A DNA stretch of 64,000 nt from Streptomyces humicola. GTDB taxonomy: Bacteria > Actinomycetota > Actinomycetes > Streptomycetales > Streptomycetaceae. The position numbers and the translations under genes are program-made. A model generated the notes under the pieces. The model was not told the DNA's origin. It worked only from the letters and a program-made list of their open reading frames with translations, and searched no databases. This document shows positions 10,009 through 48,696 of the stretch, piece by piece (the first letter of the stretch is position 1; every line of letters starts with the position of its first letter). The stretch spans positions 1-64,000 of the forward strand of contig NZ_JANFNG010000007.1 of assembly GCF_024436035.1 (NCBI RefSeq), given 5' to 3'.

Positions 10009-10941
10009 TCAGCGCTTGCGGCGCTGGAGCGCCACGGCCGCCGCGGCGCCGCCCGCCACCGCGCCCACCCCGGCCGCCGCGGGCAGCCCGATCCGGGCGG
10101 CCTTGCGCGTCGTGCGGTAGTCGCGCAGCCGCCAATCGTGCTCGCGTGCGTATTTGCGCAGCGTGCTGTCCGGGTTGATCGCGTAGGGGTGGCCGACGAG
10201 CGAGAGCATCGGGATGTCGTTCGAGGAGTCGCTGTACGCGGCGCAGCGCGACAGGTCCAGGCCGCGGGCGGCGGCGAGCGCCTTGATCGCCTCCGCCTTG
10301 GCGGGGCCGTGCAGCGGCTCGCCGACGAGCCGGCCGGTGTAGACGCCGTTCACCGACTCGGCGACCGTGCCGAGCGCGCCGGTGAGGCCGAGCCGCCGTG
10401 CGATGATCGTCGCGGTCTCGAGAGGGGCGGCGGTCACCAGCCAGACGCGCTGTCCGGCGTCGAGGTGGGCCTGGGCGAGAGCGCGCGTGCCCGGCCAGAT
10501 CTTGCCGGCCATGTACTCGTCGTAGATCTCCTCGCCGATGGACATCAGTTCCTCGACGCGGTGGCCCTTGACGATCGACAGGGCACTGTTGCGCGCGTCC
10601 TCCATGTGGGCAGGGTCCTCGATGCCGACCAGCCGGAACCACGCCTGCTGCCAGGCGAAGCGCACCAGGTCGCGGCTGTGGAAGAACTTGCGCTTGTACA
10701 GGCCGCGCCCGAAGTGGAAGAGGGCCGCGCCCTGCATCACCGTGTTGTCCAGGTCGAAGAAGGCGGCGGCTCGCGGGTCGCCGGCGACCGGGAACTCGGC
10801 GGCCTGCCCGGCTATCTCCGCCTCTCCCGCCTGCTCCTTCTCGGGGGCGGCGAGCGCGGCCTCGGCGGCAGCCTCGCCTGCCAGGACGCTTCGCGGTGTC
10901 GCGGAGCGCCTACGCGTGGTGAGCCATCCCAGACCGGCCAT
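10009..10941 (-). CDS. HAD-IB family phosphatase with C-terminal membrane anchor
   Basis: A 310-residue HAD subfamily IB protein related to SerB-type phosphatases. Motif I is [10 protein letters not shown] (Asp63, Asp65), motif [12 protein letters not shown], and motif [14 protein letters not shown]. The N-terminal 55 residues are Ala/Glu-rich and low complexity. The C-terminus has a Gly/Ala-rich hydrophobic segment followed by QRRKR, which suggests a membrane anchor. The phosphorylated substrate is unknown. The ATG at 10941 starts the conserved [12 protein letters not shown] segment; the ribosome site is weak. Homologues sit near bldN in other streptomycetes. Confidence 0.8.
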
Positions 10942-11043
10942 GTGGTGAGCATATCCACTGGCATCGTGCCTCCCCGGAACTGGCACGCTCCGGTCGTATG
11001 AACTCTTCGCGTCGATGCCGTTACGGAGGTGCGTGAGGGCACA

Positions 11044-11316
11044 ATGGGCCGAATGAACAGGACTCCACAGCCGCCGCAGCGGCGCACGGTCACGCTGATC
11101 GGCAAGCCCGGCTGCCATCTGTGCGACGACGCGCGAGGGGTGATCGAGAAGGTCGCCTCGGAGCTGGGCGCGTCCGTGGAGGAGCGCGACATCACCCAGG
11201 ACGAGGAGCTGTACCGCAAGTACTGGGAGCAGATTCCGGTCGTGCTCGTCGACGGGGCGCAGCACGACTTCTGGCGTGTCGACGAGAAGCGCCTGAGGAA
11301 GGCGCTGGGCGGCTGA
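11044..11316 (+). CDS. glutaredoxin-like thiol-disulfide protein
   Basis: A 90-residue thioredoxin-fold protein of the DUF836/glutaredoxin 2 type. [16 protein letters not shown] contains the redox CxxC, and the cis-proline is in [10 protein letters not shown]. Starts at 11029 (GTG), 11044 (ATG) and 11053 (ATG) are all possible; 11044 has GAGGG five bases upstream. It is likely cytosolic. In S. coelicolor order this gene precedes the rex operon, which fits the redox theme. Confidence 0.8.
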
Positions 11317-11447
11317 CCGCCGCCGACCTCGGTCAACGTGGGTCAACGCGGATCTTGAGCCGCTCGCGACTGGTTCCGTACTGCTCGCGTATTCGATTAC
11401 CATCGAGTGGTTTTTGGCCGAGGGGGCGTACGTAGGAAGGTGAGCGC

Positions 11448-12197
11448 GTGCTCTCGCTCGGGCTCCAGGGGGCGTTGGGCATCCCTGGTCGGTCCGGTGG
11501 ATGCGGGGGATACGCCGTGGTGGACATCGAGGCCACCGGGTCGAGTTCGCGCAGGCACCGGATCGTCGAGCTCGCGGTGGTGCTGCTCGACCGGGAGCGC
11601 CGGCCGCACGGTGAGTTCAGCACGCTCGTGGACCCCGGGAGCCCGGTCGGGCCGACGCACATCCACGGCATCGAGCAGCATCACCTGATCCGGGCCCCGC
11701 GCTTCGCGCAGATCGCGCCGCGGCTGCTCGGGCTGCTGCGCGGCCGGGTCCTCGTCGGCCACAACGTCGGGTGCGACCGGGCGTTCCTCGCCGCCGAGTA
11801 CGCGCGGGTGGGCGTTGAGCTGCCGCAGGTGCCCGAGCTGTGCACGATGCGTCTGGCGCAAGAGCACCTTCCGTCATCTCCCTATGGGCTCTCGCTGCGC
11901 GCCTGTGCGGCGGCCGCCGGTCTGCCGTCGTGGGCTGCGCACACCGCGCTCGGCGACGCACGGGCGTCGGGCCAGCTGCTGGCGCGCTGCTCGCCCGAGG
12001 ACGACGGACGGCTGGCCGAGGCGCAGGCGGTGCGGTGGCCGCGGCTGCCGCGCACGCCGGGGGACGACGCCGTGTGGATCGGCCGCTCGGGGAGGGCGGG
12101 CGACCGTGCACCGGGGGACACATCCGCCTCACAGGCTGCCGAAGGGAACGATCCGGCCAGTCGAATGGTTGCGATTGTCCGTAATGGGGGTGCGTGA
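11448..12197 (+). CDS. DEDDh 3'-5' exonuclease (DnaQ epsilon-like)
   Basis: A 249-residue exonuclease of the DnaQ/RNase T fold that would trim 3' ends of DNA or RNA. The acidic motifs are complete: VVDIEATG (Asp26, Glu28), [11 protein letters not shown], and [10 protein letters not shown] with the catalytic His and last Asp. The C-terminal 65 residues are Arg/Ala-rich and not conserved. The GTG start has AGGAAGG seven bases upstream. The gene ends about 40 bases before the Rex operator, so transcription into rex is possible. Confidence 0.85.
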
Positions 12198-37656: not shown

Positions 37657-38937
37657 TTATATGCGGGCGTGCGAAGAGATGTCCGCGATGAATTCGTCGA
37701 CCATGCCGGAGGTGACGGTGGGCCGGCATTGCTTCAGCGCGGTGAGGTAGTCGTCCGTGGTCGCGCCGTCCTGGCGTTCGGGTACGGGGCCGGGCTGGGC
37801 GAGGTCGCGTTCGAACGCCGACTGCGCGGCGATGCGGGCGGCGTGCTCGATGTCGGCCGGCGTGAGCAGCTCGCTCGCGGCGACCAGGGCGTCCAGGTCG
37901 ACCTCGGTGCGGCCGCCGGTGTAACGGGACCAGATCGCGGATCGGGCCTCCGCGTCGGGTGTGCCGATCGGGATCAGGTAGTCGAAGCGGCCGGGGCGGA
38001 GAAAGGCGGGATCGAGCGAGCGGATCGAGTTGGTGGCGCAGACCAGCAGCCGCTCGTCCCGTTCCCGGAAGCCCGGGATGAGTTTGAGCAGTTCGTTGGT
38101 GACCCCGTGCATACCGGGAGGGGTTCCTTCGCCGCGGACGGGAGCGATCTCCTCCACCTCGTCGATGAAGACCAGGACGCGTTCGAGCTCGGCGATCCGC
38201 GCGAAAGCGCTGCGCAACGCGGTGGCGAGGTTGCCTTCGTCCGCGAGGCGTGAGGGGAGCAGTTCGACGAAGGGCCAGCCGAGGCGGGAGGCGATGGCCC
38301 GCGCGAAGGTCGTCTTTCCGGTGCCGGGCGGGCCGAAAAGGGTGATGGCCCTGGGCGGGCGCACCCCGTGCCGGGCAGCTCGCTCCGGTTCGGCGAGCGG
38401 CATGACAACGCGGCGTTCGATCAGGTCCTTCTCCGCCTTCATGCCGGCCACATCGGCCCACAGGTGGCCCGGCAGCCACCGGCCGCCGAGCTCTTCGAGG
38501 TAGTCGGCCATGGGACCGGTCGGCGGCTCGTCCTTCTCGTAGTACGCCACCGCGGGCCGCCGCGTGTAGCCCGCGTTGCTCAGGCCCTCGCCGAGCAGCT
38601 CGTCCGCCGGCAGCACGTAGGCGATGCGCCGCACGCGGGCCGCGACCAGGCGCCGTTCGAGCTCCATCAGCAGCGCGCTGGCCAGGCCACGCCCGCGCCA
38701 GGCCGGTTCGATGGCGATGCGCATCACCCAGGCCCGCTCGCCCGCCAGGCATGCGAGCGCCGAGCCGATGGGCGCACCTCTGTGTACGGCGACGACCGCA
38801 GGCTGGCGGGAGGTCAGCGCGCTGATGCACTCGGCGAGGGAGAAGACCGACTCCTGGCCGAGCTCGGCAGTGGTGTCGATGAGATGGACGACGGTCGCGA
38901 GGTCGTCCTCGCGATAGTCCCGGATGAGCCAGTCCAT
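37657..38937 (-). CDS. GNAT acetyltransferase fused to an AAA+ ATPase
   Basis: A 426-residue two-domain protein. Residues 1-140 are a GNAT domain: the acetyl-CoA loop is RIAIEPAWRGRGLASALL near 73-90, then LLGEGLSNAGYTRRPAVAYYEK. Residues about 145-390 are one AAA+ module of the FtsH/CDC48 class: ITLFGPPGTGKTT (Walker A 202-209), VLVFIDEVEEIA (Walker B 255-263), CATNSIRSLDPAFLRPGRFD (sensor 1 and arginine finger). There is no protease domain or membrane segment. The chosen ATG has GAGGGG upstream. Function is unknown; remodelling or acetylation of a protein is possible. Confidence 0.82.
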   Translation of the reverse strand: MDWLIRDYREDDLATVVHLIDTTAELGQESVFSLAECISALTSRQPAVVAVHRGAPIGSALACLAGERAWVMRIAIEPAWRGRGLASALLMELERRLVAARVRRIAYVLPADELLGEGLSNAGYTRRPAVAYYEKDEPPTGPMADYLEELGGRWLPGHLWADVAGMKAEKDLIERRVVMPLAEPERAARHGVRPPRAITLFGPPGTGKTTFARAIASRLGWPFVELLPSRLADEGNLATALRSAFARIAELERVLVFIDEVEEIAPVRGEGTPPGMHGVTNELLKLIPGFRERDERLLVCATNSIRSLDPAFLRPGRFDYLIPIGTPDAEARSAIWSRYTGGRTEVDLDALVAASELLTPADIEHAARIAAQSAFERDLAQPGPVPERQDGATTDDYLTALKQCRPTVTSGMVDEFIADISSHARI

Positions 38938-39373
38938 GTCTGAGCCCCTCGCCTGGTGATGGTCCCCAGACGCTAGGGGCGGCGCAGGGGCGACTGCCTG
39001 CTCCACCGTGGACAACTCGATGGGAGGGAACGCTACGCAACCGTGCTTGACGGCGCACGCCGGCTCGACCGGGGCCCACTTCGCCTGTCGCTGCGAGTCA
39101 GCCCGGACACGGCGACGGCGCCCGAAGCAGGCTTCGAGGGCCGGTGTGCCAGGGGAAGATCTGTGACGAAGCTCCCACGGCCCCGCCGGTGCAGCCAGGT
39201 TCCTTCCCCGTGTCCCGGACCAGCCGCTTCGGGCAGCATCAGGCCACGGCCGACCATTCGCACCACGTATCCCTGGCCCACCTCTTCATTCGGATCGTCG
39301 CCGTGAGCGCCGGTGAACTGCGGAATCGGAAGTCCTCGGGGGCCCTCGCCCTCGTTGCAGGCCGGGGCATACG
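38938..39373. other. 436-base divergent intergenic stretch
   Basis: No gene is supported. It must hold the promoters of the GNAT-AAA+ gene (minus) and the first KimA-like permease (plus). Short frames on both strands have no family-like residues. I looked for a c-di-AMP (ydaO) riboswitch before the permease and did not find its conserved core. Confidence 0.6.
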
Positions 39374-41412: not shown

Positions 41413-42102
41413 TCAGGGTCCTGGCGTTTCGGGGGCGAAGCGGTAGCCGATGCCCGGCTCGGTGATCAGGTAGCGGGGGCGTGAGGGATCGGGTTCGAGT
41501 TTGCGGCGCAGGTTGGCCAGGTGCACCCGCAGATAGTTGGTCTCGGTCTCGTAGCGGGGTCCCCATACCTCTTGCAGGAGTTGGCGCTGGGTGACCAGGT
41601 GCCCGGGGCTGCGGACCAGGGTCTCCAGCAGGTGCCATTCGGTGGGGGTGAGCCGGGTCTCTCCGCCGCAGGTGGTGACGCGCTTGGCGGCCAGGTCGAT
41701 GGTGAAGGCGGCCGTGGTGATCACGGGCTGTTCCTCCGAGGGCGCGGCCCGGCGCAGGGCGGCGCGGATACGGGCGAGGAGTTCACCCATGCCGAAGGGT
41801 TTGGTGACGTAGTCGTCGGCGCCCGCGTCCAGCGCGTTGATCTTGGCGGTCTGGTCGTGGCGGGCGGAGAGCACGATGATCGGGGCCGTGGACCAGCCGC
41901 GCAGGCTCTCGACGATGGTGATGCCGTCGAGGTCGGGCAGGCCGAGATCGATGACGGCGAGGTCGGGCGCGGCGGTGGCCGCGGCCTGAAGGGCGCCGGC
42001 GGCGTCGGAGGCAGCGCTGGTCTGATAGCCACCGGCCGTCAGGGCGATGGTCAGCGCACGCAGCAGGTGCGGATCGTCGTCGACGAGGAGGATGCGGGTC
42101 AT
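41413..42102 (-). CDS. kdpE: response regulator KdpE
   Basis: A 229-residue OmpR-family response regulator. The receiver has acidic DDD at 8-10, phosphoacceptor Asp52 (AVIDLGLPDLDG), and the KPF lysine. The C-terminal winged helix includes LTPTEWHLLETLVRSPGHLVTQRQLLQEVWGPRYETETNYLRVHLANLRRKLEPDPSRPRYLITEPGIGYRF, the KdpE pattern. It overlaps the sensor kinase gene by 4 bases. No kdpFABC lies nearby, so targets are probably the two adjacent permeases. Confidence 0.88.
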   Translation of the reverse strand: MTRILLVDDDPHLLRALTIALTAGGYQTSAASDAAGALQAAATAAPDLAVIDLGLPDLDGITIVESLRGWSTAPIIVLSARHDQTAKINALDAGADDYVTKPFGMGELLARIRAALRRAAPSEEQPVITTAAFTIDLAAKRVTTCGGETRLTPTEWHLLETLVRSPGHLVTQRQLLQEVWGPRYETETNYLRVHLANLRRKLEPDPSRPRYLITEPGIGYRFAPETPGP

Positions 42103-43529
42103 GGTGCTGCCGGGAGGGTGAGGGTCATGGTCAGGCCGCCGCCGGGAGTTTCGGTCGGAGCGAGGCTACCGCCCATGGCCTCGGTGAAGCCGCGGGCGAT
42201 GGCCAGGCCCAGTCCGAGGCCGTGATCGGTGGTGCGGTCGTGCAGGCGTTGGAACGGGGCGAAGACGCGTTCGCGGTCGGCGGCGGGGATCCCCGGTCCG
42301 TGGTCGATGATCCGCAGGCGGAGCCCGTCCTGTTCCTGGCAGGCGTGCAGGTGGACGGGACGACCGTCGGGCGAGGCGTGCAGCGCGTTGTCGACCAGGT
42401 TGGCGACGACCCGTTCCAGTAGGCCCGGGTCGGCCCAGACCGCAGGCAGGTCGTCGGGCACATGCACATCCAGGTGGTGCTCTTCGGGCACGGAGGTGTG
42501 CAGGAGGGCGGCGGCCACGACCTCGTCCAGGGTTGTGGGGCGGGGGTGCACGCTCAACGCGCCGACCTGCAGACGGCTGAGCGCGAGCAGGTTCTCGACC
42601 AACGCGTTCATCTTGTCGGCGGAGGCGTTGACGGTGGCCAGCAGTTCGGCCTGCTGGGCTTCGGTGAGCGACAGCTCGGGTTCGCAGAGGCTCGAGATGC
42701 ACGCCTTGATGCCTGCCAGCGGGGTGCGCAGGTCGTGGCCGACGGCGGCCAGCAGCCCGGCCCGCAGCTTGTCGATCTCGGCCAACTCGCGGGCCTGCGC
42801 GGCCTCGGCGGCGAGGCGCTCGGCCTGCAGGGCGCGGGCAGCAGCGGTGGCCAGCAGGGTGAGGAATCGCTGGTCCGCGGCGATGACGGGTGGTCCGTCG
42901 GCTACCAGCCGCAGACGTTCGCCCGCCGATACGGACAACACCGGTTGCGCGGAGGGCGCGTGCCCGACGACGGCCACCGGCTGCTCGCCGTCCTCGCTGC
43001 TTTCCAGGAGCGCCGCTCCGGTCATCCCGAAGGTGTCGCGGACGTGTTCCAGAACGGCGCTCAACGACCGCTCCTCCAGCGGCGTCTGGGTGATGCGGGC
43101 GAGCAGTGCCGCTTCCAGGCCGCTGCGGGCGGCGGCGGCCCGCTGCCGTGCGGCCAGATCGACCGCGACGCTGACGGTGGCGGCGACCACCACGTACACG
43201 GCCAGGGTGATGAACGAGTCCTGGCTGTCCACACTCAGGGTGTGGAAGGGGCGTACGAAGTAGTAGTTGACCAGTACGTCCGAGGCGACCGCGGATGCCA
43301 GAGCCAGACGTACTCCGCAGGTGGCGGCCACGAGCACCACCGCGGTGAGGTAGATGAGCACGATGCCGGCCAGCGACAGGCCGACGCCGCTGAGCACCAG
43401 CGCCGCCGTAAGGGCCGCCAGGCCGCCCGCGGCCCCGCAGGCCGCGAGGAACCGGCGGCGCGTGCCCGGACGGTGCGCGCCCGGACGGCGCGTGCCCGGA
43501 CGGTGCGCGCCACCGCCACCCTGCGGCAT
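42099..43529 (-). CDS. kdpD: KdpD-type sensor kinase lacking the N-terminal KdpD/Usp region
   Basis: A 476-residue histidine kinase. The DUF4118 region with four membrane segments comes first (LAALTAALVLSGVGLSLAGIVLIYLTAVVLVAATCG, VNYYFVRPFHTLSV). A GAF-like stretch, HisKA (LLAAVGHDLRTPLAGIKA, His265) and HATPase (NLVDNALHASP, DHGPGIP, GLGLGLAIARGF) follow. Full KdpD is about 850-900 residues: the roughly 370-residue cytosolic sensor (KdpD domain plus Usp) is missing. I prefer the ATG at 43529, with AAGGA eight bases upstream, to 43544. A GTRRPGAHRPGTRR repeat opens the protein. Confidence 0.85.
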   Translation of the reverse strand: MPQGGGGAHRPGTRRPGAHRPGTRRRFLAACGAAGGLAALTAALVLSGVGLSLAGIVLIYLTAVVLVAATCGVRLALASAVASDVLVNYYFVRPFHTLSVDSQDSFITLAVYVVVAATVSVAVDLAARQRAAAARSGLEAALLARITQTPLEERSLSAVLEHVRDTFGMTGAALLESSEDGEQPVAVVGHAPSAQPVLSVSAGERLRLVADGPPVIAADQRFLTLLATAAARALQAERLAAEAAQARELAEIDKLRAGLLAAVGHDLRTPLAGIKACISSLCEPELSLTEAQQAELLATVNASADKMNALVENLLALSRLQVGALSVHPRPTTLDEVVAAALLHTSVPEEHHLDVHVPDDLPAVWADPGLLERVVANLVDNALHASPDGRPVHLHACQEQDGLRLRIIDHGPGIPAADRERVFAPFQRLHDRTTDHGLGLGLAIARGFTEAMGGSLAPTETPGGGLTMTLTLPAAP

Positions 43530-43612
43530 GTCCTGGTCCTTCATGCCCAGCACGCTAACGCGGCAGCAGCACGACAACGGCGAACCATCACGGGGGTTCC
43601 GCATGCCCGGTG

Positions 43613-43683
43613 ACAAGAACCCGTTAAGATCTAGGGAAGTTCAATGCCGTTTGTCCGTTTCTCGCGCTGTGTTCCCGTTAAGA
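43613..43683. promoter_or_regulatory. candidate KdpE sites before the second KimA-like gene
   Basis: ACAAGA (43613), TTAAGA (43624) and a weaker GGAAGT (43635) are spaced 11 bases apart. A further CCGTTAAGA (TTAAGA at 43678) repeats the motif of the second site 54 bases on. OmpR-family regulators bind such 11-base direct repeats. The region is shared with the divergent kdpD gene. Confidence 0.4.
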
Positions 43684-43741: not shown

Positions 43742-46222
43742 ATGGCTACCGAGACAAAGCCCGCATCGACGGCTGCCGCGCCGCGCCGCCCCGGAGCGCT
43801 CTCGATCGATGTCGATCTGCCCGAAAGCCTCGGGTACCGGCTGAAGAAGACATTTCTCGGTCCGCCGCTCGTCACCGCCGCGCTGCACAACGAGAAGCTC
43901 TCCAAGCCCATCGCGCTCGGCGTGCTCGCGCCCGACTGCATCAGCTCCAGCGCGTACGGCACGGAGCAGATGCTCACGGTGCTCCTTCCCGCCGTCGGTG
44001 TGGCGGGTTTCGCCCTGGTGATGCCCGTCACCGGCATCATCCTCGCGCTGCTGTTCCTGCTGACCTTGGCGTACCGGGACGTCGTCATGACGTACACGCG
44101 GGCCGGTGGTTCGTACGTCGTGGCGCGCGAGAACTTCGGCCCCCGCGTTGCCCAGATCGCGGCGGTCGCGCTGCTGATCGACTACATCGTGACGGTGGCG
44201 GTGCAGACCGCGGCCGGGACCGACGCCGTCGCCTCCATGCTGCAGCTGCTCTTCCACATGAACATCGATCCGCACAAATTGTGGATCACCATCGGCGTGG
44301 TGTGCCTGCTGTGCTACGGGAACCTGCGTGGCATCCGTGAGGCGGGCCGCGCCTTCTCGCTGCCGACCTATCTGTTCGTCCTGGCCACCGGCCTGACAGT
44401 GGTAGTAGGACTGGTGCGGCTCGCCCTCGGCAACCTGCCGCGGCTCACCGACGCCCAACTGCACGATGCCGGCACGATAGGCCTCGGGCATCCGGGCGGC
44501 GGCCTGCTGATGGGCGCATCGCTGTTCATCATGCTCCGGGCCTTCGCCAACGGCGGCTCCTCGCTGACCGGCCTGGAGGCCATCTCGAACGGCGTGAGCG
44601 CCTTCAGGGAGCCCCAAGGCTCCAACGCGCGCCGCACGTTGGTGATCATGAGCGTCATCCTCGGCATCCTGGTCCTCGGCGTCTCCACGCTGGCCTGGCA
44701 GACGCATGCGATGCCGTATGCCTCCGGGAGCCCGACCGTGCTTGCGCAGGAGGCCCATCTGGTCTTCGGACAGAGCGGCTTCGGCAACGTGATGTTCACC
44801 TTCGTGCAGGTGGCCACGGCGCTGATCCTCTACACCGGCGGCAACACATCCTTCAACGGCTTCCCGTTCCTGGCCAGCTTCGTGGCCGAGGACTCCTTCC
44901 TGCCACGGCAGCTGACCATCCGCGGCCACCGGCTCGCCTTCTCCAACGGCATCATCGTGCTGACCGCGGTCTCGCTCCTGCTGCTCATCGGCACCCAGGG
45001 CAATCTGACCAAGCTGGTCTCGCTCTACGCAATCGGCGTCTTCACCGGATTCGTGATGGCGGCCTCCGGCCTGTTCAAGTACCACTGGTCGCGTCAGGAG
45101 CGGCACCGCACGGCGCGGTTGGTGATCAACGGGGCCGCCGCGATCGCCTCCGCTGCCGTGGTGCTGATCTTCGCGATCACCAAGTTCACCGAAGGCGCCT
45201 GGATGGTCGTGGTGATCTTCCCGATCGGCGTCTGGGCGTTGATTCGCACCAACAGCCGCTATCGCGTGGAGACCGCGGTCCTGCGCGCCGCACCCGCCAC
45301 CGCCAGCGTGCCCACCTGGACCCGCAGCGTGGTCTACGTGCTCGTGGACAGGCTCGACCTGGCCGTCATCAAGGCCCTGCGCTATGCACGGTCGTTGCGC
45401 CCCGCAGAGCTGAGGGCGGTGCACTGGATGGTGGACGACCGCAACGCAGCGCGGCTGCGCGCCGAGTGGGAGGCAAGCCGCGCCGCGGACGTACCGCTGG
45501 AGATCGTCGAGTGCCTCGACCGGCGGATCAGGCGCGCAGCCGCCGAACTCGCGGCCCGCACCGCCGCCGACGGCGACACCGAGGTGACGCTGCTGATACC
45601 GCGGCGCGCCTACGGTCCCCTGGTGGGCCGGCTGCTGCACAGCCGCTTCGGTGACTCGATCGCGCAGGCGGTCAGCAGGCTCCCTCATGTCGCCGCGATC
45701 GTGGTGCCGTTCGACGTCGCGACGGCGATCGAGAAGTCGGAAAGCGCCCATGCGGGCCATGGGAGCCCGCGCAGCGGCCGTGCCGTAGTGGCCGGGCGCG
45801 AGGACCGGCACGGGGAGGGTAACGGCACTGCCCGTGCCCGTCGTTCCGCCACAGCGAACCGGCGCACGGCTCCGACCTTGCTCACCCACTCCGACGTGCC
45901 GGACAGCCCCCCGCTGTGTCGCCCGGACGGCACCACAGCGATCGGCGACCTTGCCTGGCGGCAGCGGGCCACCGTCACCGGCCGCATACGCGCCCTGCAG
46001 GTCACCCCGGTCTCCGGCTCGCCTCGCCTCGAATGCGAGCTGTACGACGAGACCGGCGGCCTCACCCTCGTCTTCTACGGCCGACGGTCCGTGCCGGGCA
46101 TCGAGACCGGGGCGCAGCTGCGCGTGGCGGGCATGATCGGAGCCACGAACGGCTACCTCACCATGGCCAACCCGACCTATACCTTGCTGCCCCACGAGCA
46201 GGACGAGAGCCAACAGCACTGA
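43742..46222 (+). CDS. KimA-like APC permease with C-terminal OB-fold domain
   Basis: An 826-residue fusion. Residues about 30-480 are the permease (LGPPLVTAALHNEKLSKPIALGVLAPDCISSSAYGTEQ, TRAGGSYVVARENFGPRVAQI, LLMGASLFIMLRAFANGGSSLTGLEAISNG), then a KimA-like cytosolic domain to about 660. After a basic, disordered linker, residues 740-815 form an OB-fold (IGDLAWRQRATVTGRIRALQV, LECELYDETGGLTLVFYGRRSVPGIETG). In other streptomycetes a separate small OB-fold protein is encoded beside TrkA-type potassium genes. ATG at 43742 is preceded by GAACGGA. Confidence 0.82.
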   Translation: MATETKPASTAAAPRRPGALSIDVDLPESLGYRLKKTFLGPPLVTAALHNEKLSKPIALGVLAPDCISSSAYGTEQMLTVLLPAVGVAGFALVMPVTGIILALLFLLTLAYRDVVMTYTRAGGSYVVARENFGPRVAQIAAVALLIDYIVTVAVQTAAGTDAVASMLQLLFHMNIDPHKLWITIGVVCLLCYGNLRGIREAGRAFSLPTYLFVLATGLTVVVGLVRLALGNLPRLTDAQLHDAGTIGLGHPGGGLLMGASLFIMLRAFANGGSSLTGLEAISNGVSAFREPQGSNARRTLVIMSVILGILVLGVSTLAWQTHAMPYASGSPTVLAQEAHLVFGQSGFGNVMFTFVQVATALILYTGGNTSFNGFPFLASFVAEDSFLPRQLTIRGHRLAFSNGIIVLTAVSLLLLIGTQGNLTKLVSLYAIGVFTGFVMAASGLFKYHWSRQERHRTARLVINGAAAIASAAVVLIFAITKFTEGAWMVVVIFPIGVWALIRTNSRYRVETAVLRAAPATASVPTWTRSVVYVLVDRLDLAVIKALRYARSLRPAELRAVHWMVDDRNAARLRAEWEASRAADVPLEIVECLDRRIRRAAAELAARTAADGDTEVTLLIPRRAYGPLVGRLLHSRFGDSIAQAVSRLPHVAAIVVPFDVATAIEKSESAHAGHGSPRSGRAVVAGREDRHGEGNGTARARRSATANRRTAPTLLTHSDVPDSPPLCRPDGTTAIGDLAWRQRATVTGRIRALQVTPVSGSPRLECELYDETGGLTLVFYGRRSVPGIETGAQLRVAGMIGATNGYLTMANPTYTLLPHEQDESQQH

Positions 46223-47847: not shown

Positions 47848-48067
47848 GCCGCACCTCCCGTCTCACCTCCAGGGTCGCCCGTCCGGCGTCGGCAGTCGAG
47901 TGCTCCGGTGGTTCCTGGGTGTCAGGATCGTGTCAACGTCCTGAGCTGGAGATTCGATCCCTTCGCAGTGAGGTGACCATGATGACGTATGAACATTGCG
48001 AGCCACGGTGTCCGGGCGCGCGGTCCCCAGGACGACCGAGCGGCGTGGCAGGGACGAGGAGAGTTCG

Positions 48068-48696
48068 GTGGAGCAGAACGAGATCGCGGGGGGACCGCCC
48101 GATACCGGGCCGGGCAGGCTGAAGGTCCTGCTCGGCGCGGCACCCGGGCTCGGCAAGACCTACCGGATGCTGGACGCGGGCCGCCGTCGTGCACACCGCG
48201 GCACTGATGTGGCGGTGGCGTTCGCCGAGTGCCGGGGACGTCTGCACACCGAGCAGATGCTCGGCGGCCTGGAGACCGTGCCCCGCGCGAGGCGCCGGCA
48301 CCAGGGCAGTGACGTCGAGGAGCTGGACCTCGATGCAGTGCCGGCCCGTCGGCCACGGGTCGCCCTCGTCGACGGCCTGGCGCACACCAACGTTCCCGGG
48401 GGACGCAATGCCGAACGGTGGCAGGACATCGACGAATTGCCGGGCGCGGGCATCGACGTGGTCAGCACCATCACCATCCACCACCTCGAATCCCTACCGG
48501 CTTCGTCCAGAAGATCACGGGAGTGCCACAGCACGAGACCGTCCCTGACGAGATCGTCCGCCGCGCTCACGAGATCGAACTCGTCGACATGCCCGCTGAA
48601 GGGCTGCGGCGGCGGCGTGCGCACGCAATGTGCACTGGCGGCCTGACGCGGCCCTCTCGCGCTGAGCGGATGGCCGCCGCTCAACGGTCCAACTGA
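48068..48696 (+). pseudogene. KdpD N-terminal (osmosensing) domain, frameshifted and truncated
   Basis: From GTG 48068 the frame reads as the KdpD N-domain: KVLLGAAPGLGKTYRMLDAG (Walker A), PRVALVDGLAHTNVPGGRNAERWQDIDELPGAGIDV, and IHHLESL. Near 48490 the family sequence jumps to another frame (TGFVQKITGVPQHETVPDEIVRRAHEIELVDMPAEGLRRR), which a single lost base explains, and then stops at 48696. Even repaired it would be about 208 residues, without the Usp, membrane and kinase parts. GAGGAGAG precedes the GTG. A sequencing error is possible. Confidence 0.78.

Follow-up and report, generated by a model that had tools for sequence, protein, structure and literature searches.

A single open reading frame of Streptomyces humicola joins a KimA-type permease to a C-terminal OB-fold domain homologous to the small OB protein of the potassium-related ceo locus, and the same fusion recurs in many unrelated assemblies. 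We propose, at a probability of roughly 0.55, that the product is a proton-coupled KimA-type K+ importer that carries a normally separate regulatory subunit, the ceo-locus OB protein, covalently on its cytosolic tail, and that the OB domain docks CeoB/CeoC. KimA, the OB domain and the ceo locus were each known already, and no description of a KimA-OB fusion was found in the published literature. The fusion, its spread, its apparent status as the sole recognisable importer in acI bacteria and the fact that the acI ceo locus lacks both KimA and OB are, as far as the literature that we found goes, new. The gene lies in the window, the 64,000-nucleotide stretch at the start of contig NZ_JANFNG010000007.1 that was analysed, and its parts and neighbours are listed in Table 1.

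Table 1. Features of the kimA-OB fusion gene and its upstream neighbourhood in the window
Feature	Position	Strand	Remarks
Unfused KimA-type paralogue, 666 aa	39374..41374	+	6s3k, E 4.9e-126; AA_permease_2; HNQS c-di-AMP motif intact
OmpR/KdpE-type response regulator	41413..42102	-	Domain match, ORF list
Sensor histidine kinase (DUF4118-HisKA-HATPase)	42099..43616	-	Divergent from the fusion; resembles the C-terminal half of KdpD
CCGTTAAGA, first direct repeat between the divergent genes	43621..43629	+	2 in window, 0.05 expected
CCGTTAAGA, second direct repeat	43675..43683	+	54 bases after the first
kimA-OB fusion gene	43742..46222	+	826 aa, ATG start, TGA stop; single open frame; matches in Pfam, NCBIfam and PDB; architecture shared by many other genomes
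Transmembrane LeuT-fold domain	43829..45301	+	Residues about 30-520; 6s3k alignment, counts over 19 fused proteins, model
KimA cytosolic domain	45320..45745	+	Residues about 527-668; HNQS contact motif reads HSRF at 633-636
Linker	45746..45940	+	Residues about 669-733; low pLDDT, fast evolving
OB-fold domain	45941..46195	+	Residues about 734-818; model, conserved residues, dN/dS

Translation of the fusion gene revealed no internal stop, and its start codon is backed by two relatives whose proteins begin with MATA. The original prediction had called the permease KimA-like, and this held. KimA of Bacillus subtilis (PDB 6s3k) matched residues 33-578 with an E value of 1.3e-88 and was the sole strong PDB match, PF13520 (AA_permease_2) covered residues 69-481, and Foldseek with the fusion model returned 8b70, 8b71 and 6s3k as the best matches, the structures aligning at about 31% identity; the similarity to KimA is one of both full-length sequence and fold. 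Among the residues of KimA with roles in K+ binding and proton coupling (PMC6994465), D36, Y43, T121, T230, E233 and Y377 correspond to D65, Y72, T151, T276, E279 and Y429 of the fusion. The alignment to 6s3k also pairs D117 and Y118 of KimA with D147 and Y148. The window protein has the K+/proton-coupling residues, and so do 18-19 of the 19 fused proteins, with the exception of S125, where the window protein has Q155. By its sequence the fusion is a KimA-type K+/H+ symporter, which would be expected to move K+. It shares with B. subtilis KimA, a member of the KUP family, the 12-helix LeuT-fold and the cytosolic domain, but differs from it in the added C-terminal linker and OB domain, in the Q at the position of S125 and in the HSRF that stands in place of HNQS.

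The AlphaFold model of the fusion, built with 19 fused homologues, comprises membrane and cytosolic parts like those of KimA, followed by a linker that is disordered (residues 670-726, pLDDT below 50, and about 26-35 across residues 670-720) and by a confident beta-barrel at about residues 734-818. The OB fold that had been predicted for the C-terminal region was borne out when the last 107 residues were modelled alone with 46 fused and standalone relatives, yielding a pLDDT of 91.3; the nearest solved structures were the OB domains of archaeal RPA, at Z about 13, and the wedge of RecG, at Z 11.9, and tRNA-synthetase anticodon domains scored Z 10-11. At the profile level, PF01336 (OB) matched residues 744-815 with an E value of 0.0016 and 18.8 bits, below its gathering score of 27 bits, the RecG model matched residues 732-823 (E 0.00029), and a profile search with the OB domain also retrieved RecG (E 0.00057), while a single-sequence search of the PDB for relatives of the OB domain gave weak helicase matches only. 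The fused domain thus shares its fold and a weak profile similarity with the RecG wedge/PF01336 family, but it scores below the cut-off, accompanies no helicase and is joined to a transporter. Conserved residues in the OB domain are R740, G780-R781-R782, G786, G790, N810-P811 and Y813. Between the window protein and three relatives, dN/dS was 0.20-0.25 in the OB domain against 0.37-0.61 in the linker, indicating that the OB domain is under purifying selection. An assembly artefact or read-through is ruled out by this selection together with the occurrence of the fusion in many independent assemblies, complete single-contig genomes included.

OB folds are often nucleic-acid binders, which counts against reading the domain as a transporter subunit. 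RNA contact had been raised in the original prediction. The fused domain might bind RNA or DNA and so couple the transporter with transcripts, translation or the nucleoid, a reading with which the nucleic-acid-binding nature of its nearest folds (RPA, the RecG wedge and the anticodon domains), the RecG profile match and the conservation of R740, R781 and R782 agree. However, a shared OB fold alone proves no function, and the gene context is one of potassium, with a methyltransferase gene and dut as the exceptions. Furthermore, the fused OB domain carries little net positive charge, the mean being +1.3 in fused and +5.2 in standalone domains (Mann-Whitney p 0.0002, with the relatedness of the sequences uncorrected). 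We regard nucleic-acid binding as unlikely.

KimA binds c-di-AMP through its own cytosolic domain, with R337, H579, N580, Q581, S582 and other residues, and several of the contacts are to the backbone (PMC10284832). The window protein keeps the arginine and the histidine (R389 and H633 for R337 and H579), and N, Q and S are replaced by S, R and F. Across the fused clade HNQS has mostly become HDRT, H579 being kept and R337 mostly kept; the motif is intact in two unfused paralogues of the source genome, one in the window and one on contig 8. The c-di-AMP site of the fused KimA appears altered, not plainly lost. This alteration would leave room for a replacement sensor, and the OB domain, whose conserved arginines R740, R781 and R782 could hold phosphate, might, in line with the original prediction, sense c-di-AMP or another nucleotide and gate the transporter. 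Nevertheless, KimA's own pocket may still work, given the retained H579, the mostly retained R337 and the several backbone contacts, and the motif is altered in unfused relatives too, so that the alteration and the OB domain do not go hand in hand. To our knowledge, there is no OB-fold receptor of c-di-AMP. A nucleotide-sensing OB domain is quite improbable, and the part of the original prediction that has it sense c-di-AMP is not supported.

In the source genome the fusion adjoins a Kdp-like two-component system, not CeoBC, which counts against the reading of the OB domain as a subunit. The source genome also has an unfused paralogue 59% identical to the fusion. When the source genome was searched with the C-terminal 107 residues, one other strong relative was found, a standalone OB protein (E 1e-14) encoded on contig 8, where the gene order is kdpA-kdpB-kdpC-kimA-kdpD-kdpE-OB-DUF3159. 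TTAAGA pairs with the identical 54-base spacing also lie upstream of the fusions at two other loci, and the paired TTAAGA-type repeats upstream of these three fusions are a possible response-regulator site. No Rfam RNA or riboswitch was found within the window, nor was any linked to fusions across ten sources. The search for sigma-70-like promoters and terminators around the fusion gene, which is of low informativeness in a high-GC actinobacterium, returned none. Elsewhere in the window, a 216-aa frame at 47996-48646 holds a KdpD sensor domain only and resembles a truncated kdpD remnant, and a frame at 37657-39015 combines a GNAT acetyltransferase domain with an AAA ATPase domain.

The tail had been likened to the OB protein encoded beside TrkA/CeoBC genes, and the comparison of loci agreed with this, since the tail matches a standalone OB protein and OB genes adjoin ceoB and ceoC in several families. 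Six loci from several families have the order TRAM methyltransferase, KimA, CeoB, CeoC, DUF3159, OB and dut (dut was not seen in one of them, L082), and a further locus covers the part from CeoB to dut. The standalone protein, which by gene order we take to be Rv2694c-type, shares with the fusion tail a homologous OB domain with the GRR-I-x-G and NP-x-Y motifs, but stands as a protein by itself, about 130 aa long, is more basic and groups in the OB tree as a clade of its own (98/98). Standalone homologues are encoded next to ceoBC by a gene of their own, flanked by DUF3159 and dut. The fusion tail has the sequence homology and the OB fold of this family but, because this copy is a KimA tail in another locus, we file it not as a member of the ceo-locus OB family but as a relative that is fused to KimA. 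At L082, an intact fusion adjoins the ceo locus, and the KimA gene of the ceo locus (10137-12190) reads as two overlapping frames, from decay or an assembly error.

The ceo locus of four acI genomes consists of the methyltransferase, CeoB, CeoC, DUF3159 and dut genes; of the set, just KimA and OB are missing (4/4), and the fusion is located elsewhere in these genomes. Searches of ten complete acI genomes with the window protein identified one KimA-family gene in each, in fused form, and no standalone OB protein. No TrkH, KdpA or Kup was detected in the same ten genomes, and in each family search the control genomes gave matches. The TrkA pair (CeoB/CeoC) was present in all ten and an Ion_trans_2 channel in one. 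The fusion therefore appears to be the only recognisable K+ importer in acI bacteria.

The search for other fusions showed that this one is no isolated assembly artefact. Besides the window, six Streptomycetaceae genomes carry it, and in a class-wide sample of 395 genomes an OB domain lay within a frame 720 aa or longer in 52 of them, from 12 families, a count of OB domains in long frames for which the KimA part was checked in-frame at 29 loci and some further ones. The fusion was present in 39 of 40 genomes of the Nanopelagicaceae (acI), which are small, and all 80 named Planktophila/Nanopelagicaceae (acI) loci were fused (Ca. Planktophila lacus, strain IMCC19121 among them). Other classes of the phylum also hold fused copies, which were left out of the KimA and OB trees. 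In the KimA tree, a single clade (100/100) contains all fused proteins, and the unfused members of this clade are all from Streptomycetaceae, the family from which unfused members were mainly sampled. The simplest reading is that the fusion arose once, long ago, and that the OB domain was afterwards lost within Streptomycetaceae. Repeated independent fusions are disfavoured by the KimA and OB trees, though the OB tree shows no outright single origin. Two features of this distribution count against the reading of the OB domain as a subunit: several Streptomycetaceae have the permease without it, so that it is dispensable there, and many genomes possess both fused and standalone OB domains. That the tail is an inert relic of a chance fusion, with no role, is hardly credible, for although the OB domain was lost, or never gained, in parts of Streptomycetaceae, it is retained across many families and in streamlined genomes of 1.2-1.6 Mb, and it is under purifying selection.

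Three side observations were made during these surveys. Ten KimA-like proteins from other actinobacterial classes contain two tandem copies of the cytosolic domain within one frame, another C-terminal variant of KimA. Eight Streptomyces plasmid records of about 200-300 kb encode a permease 57-60% identical, matched to about residue 670 and apparently without an OB domain. Six metagenome-assembled genomes titled Bifidobacterium breve or Streptomyces griseus hold an acI-type KimA-OB at 70-82% identity, and their titles look wrong.

To explain the fusion as a KimA-type importer with a built-in subunit, we propose the following scenario. The membrane domain would bring K+ in together with H+, and the KimA cytosolic domain would serve in dimerisation and hold the second-messenger pocket in its altered form. 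The OB domain, on its flexible tether, would dock the soluble NAD-binding RCK sensors CeoB and CeoC onto the transporter, and perhaps also the membrane protein DUF3159. Docking of this kind would let K+ import track the state of the cell. Because CeoB and CeoC are both soluble and RCK-type, and the acI genomes are without TrkH, a KimA-type permease is the best candidate for their membrane partner. This agrees with a published transposon screen, where ceoB and its neighbour Rv2690c had the same phenotype (PMC12216072). Since KimA and OB occur fused and are missing together from the acI ceo locus, the OB protein looks like a subunit of the KimA transporter; we infer that its partners are CeoB, CeoC or DUF3159, and the OB domain would be the best candidate adaptor between the permease and CeoB/CeoC. 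The direct tie between this OB protein and K+ transport, as originally predicted, is supported, and more strongly than sequence alone could reveal.

The 'Trk' system of Mycobacterium tuberculosis is described as two TrkA proteins only, unlike the arrangement proposed here, and in the mycobacterial papers covered by text search no KimA-type or TrkH membrane partner was named. In the conserved actinobacterial locus, however, ceoB and ceoC adjoin genes for a KimA-type permease and the OB protein. We suggest tentatively, at somewhat less than even odds, that the missing membrane part of the actinobacterial 'Trk' is the KimA-type permease and its missing coupling part the OB protein, that the fusion holds these two together, and that in acI bacteria the fusion is the sole dedicated K+ import system.

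CeoB and CeoC have been treated as a K+ transporter in mycobacteria though both are soluble TrkA-type proteins. The conserved ceo locus, the existence of the fusion and the lack of both KimA and OB from that locus in acI bacteria suggest that the membrane part is a KimA-type permease, partnered by the OB protein. An old fusion found across actinobacteria, which appears to be the sole importer in acI, suggests that the OB protein is a working part of K+ uptake. An OB protein of previously unexplained function may thereby gain a place in K+ uptake, and the only recognisable K+ importer is named for acI, the most abundant freshwater actinobacteria.
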